NCBI GenBank assembly: GCA_013151865.1
Contig: JAADHN010000111.1
Coordinates: 1-64,000, forward strand
Direction of reading: 5' to 3'
DNA: 64,000 nt
Source: Kiritimatiellota bacterium
GTDB lineage: Bacteria; Verrucomicrobiota; Lentisphaeria; Oligosphaerales; JAADHN01
The notes beneath the pieces are model-generated. The model ran no database searches. It was not told the DNA's origin and saw only the letters and a list, made by a program, of their open reading frames with translations. A program made the translations under genes and the position numbers. Every line of letters starts with the position of its first letter. Positions within the stretch are counted from its first letter, which is position 1. Shown piece by piece: positions 11,155-29,962 of this stretch.

Positions 11155-11919
11155 TTCACACAACACCATATCTTCCGGCATGGGAACGTCCGCCTGCACG
11201 GGACATCGGGGACCGCCGCACTCTTCCGGCGCGGCCGAGGCGCCTGCTCCCCCCGCCCGAATCCGCACCGGGCGGGCCCGGTCTCGGGTTCCGTACCTAA
11301 CGTGCGCCCGAGCAGAATCCAAAACAACGACACGGGACGTACCGGCCTTGGACAAAAGCCGGAACTGCCTCCCGTCAAGGCCGTCGGGCCGACTGAGCCG
11401 CAGGCATCTTCCGGCTGTCGAATCAGCCAAACGAATCCGCCGATCCTCCAGATTCTGTCCATCGAAGCGATAAGTAACATATCCGCACGAATGGGAAAAA
11501 CGAGCCCCGTGCCCGAACTCATCACACAAGCCGTGACGGCGGCGGGCAAAAAACAGTCGTGCGCCGTGCAATCCGCACGGCTCAGCATATCTTACCGGTT
11601 TTACCGATTCATTCGCCAAAGGGCAACGACCCGATGAGCGCCGCTTCGACACCGGGCGAACCGGGTAGTGTCAAGTTCAGAATGAAAAAAGCCGGAGGCC
11701 GACGGTCGGGCAGCCGGAGTTACCCACAGTCGGCAACTCGGCTCCGACGAGTGACTTACGACCCATTCTCGCCTTCGCCGCCCGCCGCCGCCTATGGATA
11801 ACCCCGGCGACGGGGGGGGAGAGGTCAACTCGGCGTGTAACGCGCTTTTACAGTGAGTGTTACGGCGAAATGTCGTGGTGAAAATTGACAGAACCGCGAA
11901 CCGCAGACGGAGAAGTTCC
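11155..11919. other. Divergent intergenic region
   Basis: 765 bases between the UAP1-like gene (-) and the MTHFR fusion (+). Frames on both strands stay open by GC bias but give Arg/Pro/Cys-rich peptides without domain character. Short inverted repeats occur around 11697-11760. No promoter could be assigned with confidence. Confidence 0.4.
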
Positions 11920-14334
11920 ATGAAGCTGGTGGATAACGCGGGACAGGGAAAGTTCACGGTTGTGGTCGAGTTCACTCCCCACAGTCGGAAAGACGTCGAG
12001 TCCATTGCCGGCATCGGGCAAGGCTTGGTCGAACTCAACCGGAAATTTGCTTCGGACAACATCGAATTCGCCGGTGTGTCCCTGACGCAGAACCCGGGGG
12101 GCAATCTCTCCTACGACCATCAGGCATCCCTGGCCATCCTCCGGGAAAACGGGTTTCCCGCGTCGATCGAGATCATACCGCACATCACGGGCAAAGACAT
12201 GAATGCGGACGCGGTCCGTTCCCTTTTGACCTCACTTGCAGAGGCCGGGATAGAAACGATCCTCGCCCTGACCGGCGACGCGCCGCTTGCGGCGCGGGGC
12301 GTGTTCGAACTGGATTCCCTGTGCATCCTCCAGTTGTTGCGGGAGATCAACGCAGACCGTCTGCGCAAGAGCAAGACCCTCGATCAATTCAGTGCGATCC
12401 CTCTGCTTGGCGCCGGGGCCGCGGTGTCGCCGTTCAAATACACCGAGTCTTCCCTGGCGATGCAGTACATCAAGGCCGGCAAAAAGGTTCGCGAAGGAGC
12501 ATCGTTTCTTGTCTGCCAAGCAGGTTGGGACGCGGACCGTTCCGAGCGCCTCATGCAGGCACTGGGCCCGGACGGGGAGATGGGCGGTCCGTCCGTCCCG
12601 ATCTTGGGCAACGCTCTCGTGACAAATGAAACCGCCGCAAAATTCATGCAGGAATTACCGGGCTGCGTGGTCACCGACGCCTTCTTGCACCGCCTGCACG
12701 AGGAACCCAAGAACGGCCCCGTGATCCGTGCCGCGCAACAGGTGGCCATGTTTCGCGCTTTGGGCTACAGCGGCGTAGACCTTGGAAAGCCGGGCGATTT
12801 CCGCAGCATCGAGGAGATCGAAGAGATTCTGGAGAGAGCCCTGGCCATTCGCGACTGGCGCGAATTCAAAGAGAATATCACCTTCGCACCTTCCGAGGCC
12901 CCGCCGCCCCGAGTCAAGCCGGGGGCCGGGGTCTCGAAGACAGTCCATAATTTGACCTTTGAAAAAGACGGCCTGCTCCACCAACCGACCAAGGCATTGC
13001 TCTCGGTCTTCGACAAGTCTGCTCAGCACCGGGGACCGCTCTATCGCTTCTTCAAGGCCGCCGAAGGCGCCGCAAAAGAATTCTTGTACGAATGCGACCG
13101 CTGTGGGGACTGCTACTTGCCCGAAAATCAGTATGTCTGCACCATGGGAGGCTGTGAAAAAGGCCTGTCCAACCCGCCCTGTGGAGACACGGAACCCGAC
13201 GGCGCCTGCGGGAACAACCCAGATCGAGTCTGCGTCGGGGAACAGCTCTATTCCCGTCTGCAGCACTACGGCGCCCTGGATGAGTTCCGACAAACCGCTT
13301 TCCCGCCCCGGGATCCGAAACTTCGCGACACGGCTTCGGTGCTGAATTTCTTCTTCGAACGGGATCACACCGCCCGAACAAGCCTGCTGGATGAAAGCGG
13401 TCTCACCCAAGTGGCAGAACTCGTGCACGCCTCAATCCCATTTCCGGGTGCGGCCATGCGGTTCTTGCAGAGGATGGGCGCCGACGCTTTCGACAGACCG
13501 AACCGCGGCCTCGACGCGATAGGCTGGCTCATCTCGACGCAAGCCGCCCAGGGGGCCCACTTCATCGACCTGAACATCGATGAACTCGGCGACCCGGACG
13601 CCCCCGAACTCATGCGCCGATTCGTCCGACTCGTGCGCCGGTTTGGACGCGGCATCCCCCCCTGCATCGACAGTTCCGATGTCAACGTTCTCGTTGCCGG
13701 TCTGCGAGAGTGGTTCGACGGGGGGACGGCGCCCCCCCCCCCTATGCTCAACTCGATCCCCTATAACGAGGCCGACCGGCGAGGCCCGGTCTTCGAACTG
13801 CGCCGGAACCATCCTTTCAACGTGGTCTGCCTGCTGGTCGGTCCCGAGGGCCCACTGGACTCGTCCGACAAGATGGTCGAGGCTGCCAGAGAATTGTTCG
13901 ACCGCTGCCGGACGGCCGGATTCCGCTCCGAGGAGATCTACTTCGACACCGTGACCCTCGGGATCGCCACCGACGGCTGCATCGACCCCATGGGTGGTAT
14001 CAAGCCGTCGCACACGCACAACTCGTTTCACGCCATTCAGCGCATCCGCCAGGATCCGGAGATGAAAGGCGTTCACGCTATTCTCGGGGTGTCGAACTGG
14101 GTCTATGGCGCGAAAAAGCGCCGCGTCGGACACGTCCGCGCCTTCACCGCCGTCGCCCAAAAGCACGGACTCGATGCCGTCATCTGCGATGTGGAAAAAT
14201 GTTTTGGCTTGCGCAAACCTGCACCGGAACTTGTCGAATTCGTCGAAATGTTCGTCTCGCTCGACGGCAGTGAAGACTCCATGATGCGCTACGTGGAGAA
14301 GCTGCAAGAAATGCGCGAGAAACAATGGGTGTAA
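11920..14334 (+). CDS. MTHFR / MTHFR C-terminal Cys-rich domain / pterin-binding methyltransferase fusion
   Basis: 804-aa cytosolic one-carbon enzyme with three parts. Residues about 1-300 form a MetF-type TIM barrel (methylene-THF reductase; TVVVEFTPH, IEIIPHITGKD, ILALTGD). Residues about 389-441 are a cysteine-rich block (ECDRCGDC, CTMGGCEKG, PPCGDTEPDGACG) matching the MTHFR C-terminal domain found in acetogen MetV-like proteins. Residues about 490-804 are a pterin-binding TIM barrel of the methyl-THF:corrinoid methyltransferase/dihydropteroate-synthase type (DLNIDE, CIDSSDVNV, LNSIPYNEADR). Known families imply reduction of methylene-THF and use of the methyl-THF on one chain. The methyl acceptor, probably a corrinoid protein, is not in the window. 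Start: ATG at 11920 after CGGAGAAG. Confidence 0.85.
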   Translation: MKLVDNAGQGKFTVVVEFTPHSRKDVESIAGIGQGLVELNRKFASDNIEFAGVSLTQNPGGNLSYDHQASLAILRENGFPASIEIIPHITGKDMNADAVRSLLTSLAEAGIETILALTGDAPLAARGVFELDSLCILQLLREINADRLRKSKTLDQFSAIPLLGAGAAVSPFKYTESSLAMQYIKAGKKVREGASFLVCQAGWDADRSERLMQALGPDGEMGGPSVPILGNALVTNETAAKFMQELPGCVVTDAFLHRLHEEPKNGPVIRAAQQVAMFRALGYSGVDLGKPGDFRSIEEIEEILERALAIRDWREFKENITFAPSEAPPPRVKPGAGVSKTVHNLTFEKDGLLHQPTKALLSVFDKSAQHRGPLYRFFKAAEGAAKEFLYECDRCGDCYLPENQYVCTMGGCEKGLSNPPCGDTEPDGACGNNPDRVCVGEQLYSRLQHYGALDEFRQTAFPPRDPKLRDTASVLNFFFERDHTARTSLLDESGLTQVAELVHASIPFPGAAMRFLQRMGADAFDRPNRGLDAIGWLISTQAAQGAHFIDLNIDELGDPDAPELMRRFVRLVRRFGRGIPPCIDSSDVNVLVAGLREWFDGGTAPPPPMLNSIPYNEADRRGPVFELRRNHPFNVVCLLVGPEGPLDSSDKMVEAARELFDRCRTAGFRSEEIYFDTVTLGIATDGCIDPMGGIKPSHTHNSFHAIQRIRQDPEMKGVHAILGVSNWVYGAKKRRVGHVRAFTAVAQKHGLDAVICDVEKCFGLRKPAPELVEFVEMFVSLDGSEDSMMRYVEKLQEMREKQWV

Positions 14335-28783: not shown

Positions 28784-29962
28784 ATGCCCCAGATTTTCTT
28801 CGACCCGTTCACGGGCGCGGCCGGAAACATGATCCTTGCGGCCCTGTTCGACCTCGGAGCGCCTCCCGCCGCCGTCGAGGCGGCCGTTCGGTCCACGGGC
28901 CTGACCGGGTTCTCCGTCGTGTTCGAACGCAATCGTGATCGACACGGCTTGGTGTCCGGCGTTTGCGAAGTCCGCATCGAGGGCGGACCGCGCCCCCACA
29001 GACATTTGTCGGACATCCTGGAATGCATCGAAAAAGCAACCGTTTCGGAGCGGGTTCGACAGCAGGCCCGCGCTGTTTTCACACGCTTGGCGGAAGCAGA
29101 GGCGACGGTCCACAGGGTGTCCGTGGATCACGTGCACTTTCACGAGGTCGGCGCCGTGGATGCGATAGTGGACGTGCTTGGGACGTGCGTCGCGCTGGAA
29201 GAACTTGACGTGGACCGGGTTTATTGCGGGCCGTTCAAGGTCGGCCGCGGGACGACCGAGTGCGCGCATGGGATCTTGCCCGTACCCGCCCCCGCGACGG
29301 CCAGCCTGCTCGAAGGCGAGATGTTCGAGCGCCTGAATATCGAGGCCGAACTCACCACTCCGACGGGCGCTGCCTTACTGACCACCCTGAGTCAAGGCGA
29401 CTGGGGCGGTATCGCCGCCCGCTGCCTCCGGTGCGGGACCGGACGGGGCAGCCGTTCCTTCCCGGGCAGACCGAACATTTTGCGAGCCTTTCTGGTGGAG
29501 GTGAGTCGACCGCTCGAAGCCGTCGAAGTCCTCGAAACCGACGTCGATGACGAATCCCCGGAAATCATGGCGGCGCTGACCGAACGCCTGCGGCGGGCCG
29601 GTGCACTGGATGCGACTTTGACCCCCCTGATCATGAAAAAAGGGCGGACAGGAACGCGCCTGACGGTGATTTCGCGCCCGGGGGACAGTCCGCGCTTGGC
29701 GGACCTCGTTTTTCGTGAGTCGAGCACCATTGGGATTCGTGTGACTCGGGCGTCGCGGTACGTGCTTCCACGCAGTGAAACCACCGTGGAGACCCCGTGG
29801 GGCCCGGTCCGGGCCAAACGCCTCGAACGCCCGCACGGCGTCGAGATCGCCCCGGAATTCGAGGCGGCTCGCGACCTGGCCCGCACCGCCGGGGTCCCGG
29901 TGCGGGACGTAATGCACGCCGTCCGCAAGACTATCCCAACCGAGGACAACGGGGCAAAATGA
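28784..29962 (+). CDS. larC: Nickel-pincer cofactor biosynthesis protein LarC (nickel chelatase)
   Basis: 392-aa cytosolic protein that inserts nickel into pyridinium-3,5-bisthiocarboxylic acid mononucleotide to give the nickel-pincer nucleotide. The N terminus is diagnostic: FFDPFTGAAGNMILAALFDL. VHFHEVGAVDAIVDVLG and the second domain (ETDVDDESPEIMAALTERL) follow. In Lactobacillus plantarum the two LarC domains are joined by programmed frameshifting; here they form one uninterrupted frame. Start: ATG at 28784 after CAGGAAACAG. The stop overlaps the larB start as ATGA. No larA (lactate racemase-type client) or larE is in the window. Confidence 0.92.
   Translation: MPQIFFDPFTGAAGNMILAALFDLGAPPAAVEAAVRSTGLTGFSVVFERNRDRHGLVSGVCEVRIEGGPRPHRHLSDILECIEKATVSERVRQQARAVFTRLAEAEATVHRVSVDHVHFHEVGAVDAIVDVLGTCVALEELDVDRVYCGPFKVGRGTTECAHGILPVPAPATASLLEGEMFERLNIEAELTTPTGAALLTTLSQGDWGGIAARCLRCGTGRGSRSFPGRPNILRAFLVEVSRPLEAVEVLETDVDDESPEIMAALTERLRRAGALDATLTPLIMKKGRTGTRLTVISRPGDSPRLADLVFRESSTIGIRVTRASRYVLPRSETTVETPWGPVRAKRLERPHGVEIAPEFEAARDLARTAGVPVRDVMHAVRKTIPTEDNGAK

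Follow-up and report, generated by a model that had tools for sequence, protein, structure and literature searches.

A single-chain fusion of methylenetetrahydrofolate reductase, a MetV-type domain and a methyl-tetrahydrofolate methyltransferase as a probable gate between the folate pool and corrinoid proteins

Methyl-tetrahydrofolate (methyl-THF) is the one-carbon fork that leads to methionine, acetyl-CoA and demethylation. Work on the roseobacter R. pomeroyi reports that neither methionine synthesis nor glycine betaine demethylation can do without the corrinoid protein MtgC and the pterin methyltransferase MtgD, that metF2, encoded downstream of mtgD, shows strong induction, and that the levels of RamA and DUF1638 proteins increase on N-osmolytes (PMC12478193). 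Mutant fitness was used to show a three-part MetH in P. inhibens, and this methionine synthase reportedly requires a DUF1638 protein and a RamA-like protein (PMC5764234). For MetFV of the acetogen C. ljungdahlii, an iron content of 7.4 Fe is reported, with reduced ferredoxin rather than NAD(P)H as electron donor; its MetV is reported to carry two [4Fe-4S] clusters, although the same papers mention zinc annotations or predictions for MetV as well (PMC8515935; PMC8760232).

A gene that joins such activities on one chain was found in the window, the whole 64,000-nucleotide stretch of DNA that was analysed. The open frame spans 11857-14334 on the plus strand; the ATG at 11920 gives a protein of 804 aa (11920-14334), the five fusion sequences that were aligned first all share Met1, and reading of the sequence placed GGAG, a likely ribosome-binding site, at 11909-11912 (+), 7 bases 5' of the ATG. 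The sequence-only reading had proposed a three-part fusion of MetF, MetV and methyltransferase nature, and domain search bore this out, with each part above its Pfam cut-off on the same chain. The MTHFR (MetF-type) barrel covers residues 9-265 (11944-12714, +; 51 bits against a cut-off of 24), the MetV-type domain DUF5981, 'Methylene-tetrahydrofolate reductase C terminal', covers residues 378-465 (13051-13314, +; 62 bits against 23), and a Pterin_bind barrel of MeTr/MtgD type covers residues 539-755 (13534-14184, +; 40.8 bits against 25.5). Acetogen MetFV likewise combines an MTHFR barrel with a DUF5981 domain bearing a conserved Cys pattern, but divides these between two subunits, MetF and MetV, and has no methyltransferase barrel; two-domain MetF-MetV chains also occur in this phylum. 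YitJ-type proteins resemble the fusion in joining MTHFR to a methyltransferase, although their partner is a homocysteine methyltransferase instead of a pterin methyltransferase.

The same architecture was recovered on one chain in 12 distinct genomes, the present one and 11 further ones, so the search beyond the source genome proposed earlier did find the fusion recurring. Full-length matches were obtained in 2 of 59 relatives (G000, which is the source genome itself, and G003), in 9 of 387 genomes sampled from the phylum, and at three further loci, L017, the Lentisphaeria-labelled L018 and L019; L106 (G309) and L018 (G060) gave an identical match at identical places and were counted once. MTHFR and DUF5981 were detected in the same order in 12/12 fusions and Pterin_bind in 11/12. 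Identical domain order in 12 genomes is far beyond chance, which rules out an assembly artefact, and the fusion on one chain is real. Concerning the possibility that the architecture is common and already characterised, a search of the open-access PubMed Central literature by titles and abstract openings, with subscription journals outside its scope, found no paper describing this fusion. The individual parts are familiar, but no description of the single chain, of its clade or of its operon appears to have been published.

To characterize the three parts, residues conserved among the 12 fusions were compared by alignment. Glu17, His88, Asp120 and Gln200 of the MTHFR barrel are invariant in all of them, which together with the PF02219 domain assigns this part to MetF; residues of the Glu28/Asp120/Gln183 type are taken here, from E. 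coli, to be the MetF signature. Eight Cys (392, 395, 398, 407, 412, 421, 430 and 438) are likewise invariant in 12/12, placing the DUF5981 part (62 bits) with MetFV-type proteins. The earlier label of a zinc-type Cys domain is thus upheld for the cysteines and doubtful for zinc: since MetV of C. ljungdahlii is reported, in the passages cited, to hold two [4Fe-4S] clusters (PMC8515935, PMC8760232), iron-sulfur is most likely the cofactor here too.

In the last barrel, the putative methyl-folate residues Asp584, Asn611, Asp676 and Asn726 are kept in 11/12 fusions, which span two subclades, and they assign the barrel to the methyl-THF:corrinoid methyltransferases of MeTr/MtgD type. The role of this Asp/Asn/Asp/Asn set is presumably that of the corresponding residues in Moorella MeTr. 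The concern that the pterin barrel might lack methyl-THF residues therefore did not materialise. The one departure is a Sumerlaeota-labelled fusion (L019 1145-3595, +; genome G061), whose methyltransferase barrel is decayed: three of the four residues are gone. Its MTHFR and Cys domains remain intact, and the genome has MetE. Such a protein would fit a last barrel that is a dead structural domain on what is just an MTHFR, but retention of the residues in the other 11 across both subclades makes this reading highly improbable for the fusion at large.

The AlphaFold model (mean pLDDT 62.5, from a 4-row alignment) contains two barrels, and Foldseek matched it to MetH folate domains, MeTr and MTHFR; against the PDB, the last barrel was closest to MetH folate domains, with AcsE/MeTr next. 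Two TIM barrels bridged by a metal site had been predicted. The barrels are there; the bridging metal site is not visible because the middle region of the model (residues 318-487) falls below pLDDT 50.

A tree of the methyltransferase barrels was then computed from 37 rows (12 fusions, 9 stand-alone forms, 14 MetH and 2 AcsE), with domains from the retrieved loci only; L134 was 33% filled, L019 formed a long branch, and L003, a fragment of the gene itself, was left out. The barrels of the 12 fusions group in a single clade (100/100), to which none of the sampled MetH, AcsE or stand-alone forms belongs. Within it, the fusions of three genomes of one family (f34) lie in the more distant subclade, at 40-42% identity to P0001. 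MetH membership is not supported: Pterin_bind is the sole MetH module present, and TIGR02082 scored 65 bits against 1010.85. Nor does the fusion belong with AcsE, as it scored 35 bits with NCBIfam CODH_ACS_meth, whose cut-off is 370, no acs gene was found among ten window proteins and the barrel lies outside the clade of the two AcsE rows. AcsE/MeTr of CODH/ACS also has a Pterin_bind barrel with equivalent folate residues by alignment, yet in the source genome AcsE is a separate gene in a separate clade.

No C1 enzyme was found among the ten window proteins tested around the fusion; the neighbours include a UDP-sugar pyrophosphorylase, a phosphoglucose isomerase, a fucosidase-type protein, a GltD-like flavoprotein and a LarC-type protein, the last a nickel insertion protein gene at 28784-29962 (+; PF01969, 417 bits). 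The earlier statement that no corrinoid protein or CODH/ACS lies nearby holds for these ten proteins and fails for the genome, which has one PF02607 corrinoid protein and, on contig C29, a cluster encoding FTHFS, a two-domain MetF-MetV, a CooC-type NTPase, CODH, NuoE/F-like and NuoG-like proteins, ACS, both CFeSP subunits, RACo and a separate AcsE-type methyltransferase. This genome is 97% complete, and it appears to have a full Wood-Ljungdahl pathway even when the fusion is left out of account. A partial methyl branch, which the sequence-only reading had considered, was accordingly rejected, as was a role of the fusion as the AcsE of CODH/ACS. Four PF02219 genes are present. On contig C34 (L042 7158-9982, +) lies a further MTHFR of 301 aa, flanked, as judged by eye, by a MvhD-looking small protein and a large iron-sulfur-like protein.

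With CFeSP and FTHFS clusters in both the source genome and G003, and CODH and ACS in the former, the fusion might be a spare methyl-branch enzyme that supplies the corrinoid iron-sulfur protein of the Wood-Ljungdahl pathway. CODH/ACS has no need of it, however, because the C29 cluster already brings an AcsE and a two-domain MetF-MetV; with the barrel outside AcsE in the tree and far below the family cut-off, this role is very unlikely. The proposed co-occurrence with CODH/ACS or CFeSP is seen for CODH/ACS in the source genome and breaks down in G059 and G061, which carry the fusion with no CdhD match. The search of fusion genomes for CODH/ACS and homocysteine methyltransferase covered G000, G003, G059, G060 and G061.

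Gene neighbourhoods were compared among the fusion genomes. The three f34 genomes (G140, G409 and G270) share the order folD, fusion, FocA-type channel, FTHFS, corrinoid protein, RACo and DUF1638, with a divergent regulator gene (AraC-type in G409); the G409 operon continues with a MtaA-like UroD protein and CobW. The order is fusion, folD, FTHFS in G374 and FTHFS, fusion at L017. FTHFS is found in the fusion cluster in 5/12 and a corrinoid protein in 3/12; the linked set of corrinoid protein, RACo and DUF1638 was found in the three f34 genomes, and the set is not linked to the fusion in the source genome. No C1 gene of the query set used adjoins the fusion in 18-20 kb stretches of G003, G069, G171 and G258, G069 having the corrinoid-RACo-DUF1638 set, and G258 a corrinoid-RACo pair, away from the fusion; the contigs of L018 and L019 are too short to judge. 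No SAM or cobalamin riboswitch was found near the fusions or near the homocysteine methyltransferase or corrinoid genes of the source genome, the RNA searches yielding one Acido-Lenti-1 RNA, in L048; PADLOC gave no match.

The f34 operon resembles the roseobacter MtgBCDE system in its stand-alone corrinoid protein, pterin methyltransferase, RamA/RACo and DUF1638, and in the roseobacter a MetF paralogue gene adjoins the methyltransferase gene, as the passages cited above describe; the likeness is one of gene kind, not of direct sequence comparison. In the roseobacter these are separate proteins, whereas here the methyltransferase, MTHFR and MetV-type domain form one chain. Because the f34 partner set is the same in kind as the roseobacter set, the fusion may be read as MtgD, MetF2 and MetV in one chain. 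A plasmid search for roseobacter-type relatives returned only two Acaryochloris MetH records.

Two other arrangements of these genes were noted. G227 has an unfused counterpart of the fusion in the opposite order, with a two-domain MetF-MetV gene behind a stand-alone pterin methyltransferase gene (L154 5708-8539, +). In G022/G044, a homocysteine methyltransferase-MTHFR fusion adjoins a stand-alone pterin methyltransferase (L081 7569-10517, -; L083 1449-4475, +), which is apparently a different split methionine synthase.

Taken together, the fusion is probably a gate that works in both directions and links the folate C1 pool with a free-standing corrinoid (B12) protein, corrinoid-CH3 <-> CH3-THF <-> CH2-THF. 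From the domains, residues, clade, gene neighbours and the presence or absence of partners, we infer the reactions, their direction, the electron carrier and the hand-over of methyl-THF between the barrels. The C-terminal barrel would shuttle the methyl group between THF and the corrinoid protein. Methyl-THF would be oxidised to methylene-THF, or formed from it, by the N-terminal barrel, whose flavin would exchange electrons with ferredoxin or a similar carrier by way of the MetV-like Cys domain. The earlier idea that one polypeptide couples methylene-THF reduction to use of methyl-THF thus gains support, direct channelling being putative. Several observations count against the gate: no partner adjoins the fusion in the source genome, the seven-gene operon lies in one family and in the more distant subclade, MetH-length proteins coexist with the fusion in 6/12 genomes, and the riboswitch searches turned up no SAM or cobalamin switch.

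Beside folD, FTHFS and a formate channel, the gate would most likely run from methyl to formate, with ATP gained at FTHFS. A stricter version makes the fusion only catabolic, methyl groups of methylated compounds, released by MttB/UroD-type enzymes, passing through the corrinoid protein to the fusion, FolD and FTHFS to give formate and ATP. The content of the f34 operon speaks for it, as do the MtaA-like UroD protein and CobW in G409 and the presence of MttB in 3/5 fusion genomes tested, among them the source genome, where a UroD-type gene comes after the MttB gene. However, MttB was not found in G059 or G061, no such cluster surrounds the fusion in the source genome, and the same genes could run imported formate to methyl-corrinoid, so that an exclusively catabolic role is doubtful.

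Partner genes were next compared across genomes, all of which are drafts, so gene absences are soft. A stand-alone (short) corrinoid protein is present in 12/12 fusion genomes against 33/57 other relatives (p=0.003, Fisher, uncorrected for kinship). A MetH-length frame is missing from 6/12 fusion genomes and from 15/57 others (p=0.10, Fisher, uncorrected for kinship), MetH-length meaning a frame of at least 449 aa, which takes in G005 (491 aa) and G031 (449 aa), possibly not MetH. The lack of MetH thus shows no significant association with the fusion, and with MetH-length proteins in 6/12, replacement of MetH by the fusion is weakened as a general rule.

G000, G003, G059, G060 and G061 have one short protein each with the corrinoid cap domain PF02607 and no MetH-length frame; G374 also lacks such a frame, and G069, G171, G258, G140, G409 and G270 have a short corrinoid protein plus a MetH-length frame of 854-1292 aa. 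In the first five genomes, PF02965 was found in 0/5, PF01717 (MetE, core MetE) in 1/5 (G061) and PF02574 in 5/5, leaving a separate corrinoid protein and homocysteine methyltransferase with no MetH in G000, G003, G059 and G060. The source genome has one PF02607 protein, one PF02574 protein, no PF02965 and no PF01717. Its PF02574 protein is nearest to T. maritima MetH (157 bits to 1q7m against 71 to BHMT), and its corrinoid protein is nearest to 1y80, a predicted cobalamin binding protein presumably of Moorella origin, and to methylamine corrinoid proteins. A frame of 203 aa in G060 (L093 3363-3971, +) has a homocysteine methyltransferase start and, weakly, a corrinoid protein end, and may be a frameshift or remnant.

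These partners raise a narrower reading, with the fusion serving solely as the folate module of a B12-dependent methionine synthase that is split into separate proteins: the MTHFR would make CH3-THF, the last barrel would methylate the corrinoid protein and a separate homocysteine methyltransferase would finish. It draws on the four genomes with corrinoid and PF02574 proteins and neither MetH-length PF02607 nor MetE, on the MetH-like homocysteine methyltransferase of the source genome, on the three-part MetH that the cited sections describe in P. inhibens (PMC5764234), and on G061, which has MetE and has lost methyl-folate residues. MetH-length proteins are kept in 6/12, however, the association of MetH absence with the fusion is not significant, the f34 operons are without a homocysteine methyltransferase and the absences come from drafts; a purely methionine-directed role is possible, though rather unlikely. 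Cobalamin-dependent methionine synthesis, as considered in the sequence-only reading, is possible in the source genome, but half of the fusion genomes also have a MetH-length protein, and in three the fusion is tied to a methyl-to-formate gene set instead.

The two-way gate accommodates both directions: the f34 operon suggests methyl to formate, and the MetH-less, MetE-less genomes suggest methionine. The source genome, with no detectable MetH or MetE, a MetH-type homocysteine methyltransferase, one corrinoid protein and one MttB-UroD pair, may use the gate for methionine synthesis, demethylation or both, and another methyl-THF methyltransferase could exist there. More tentatively, the fusion may be a single-chain 'methyl oxidase' of the phylum, whose barrels would hand over methyl-THF with the MetV-type domain between them, taking in a B12-bound methyl and giving out methylene-THF. 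In f34-type genomes it would serve a methyl-to-formate fermentation that draws ATP from FTHFS and releases formate by the FocA-type channel without CODH/ACS; reversed, it would supply methionine in relatives that lost MetH.

Since the fusion holds a methyl-THF maker or burner and a B12 trader, it offers a compact object for tests of methyl-THF channelling. It also suggests that little-studied anaerobes have a methyl route linked to B12, for which the operon folD-fusion-focA-fhs-corrinoid-RACo-DUF1638 is a testable unit.

Further corrinoid-domain proteins resembling HgcA were seen in the source genome, at L045 7204-8505 (-) and L044 7513-9123 (-) on contigs C44 and C175, and in G003 at L050 406-1875 (+). 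All three have the cap motif NVWCAAG, which we take to be a mark of HgcA, and hydrophobic C-terminal stretches, and the C44 protein has Fer4 domains on the same chain, resembling an HgcA-HgcB fusion.
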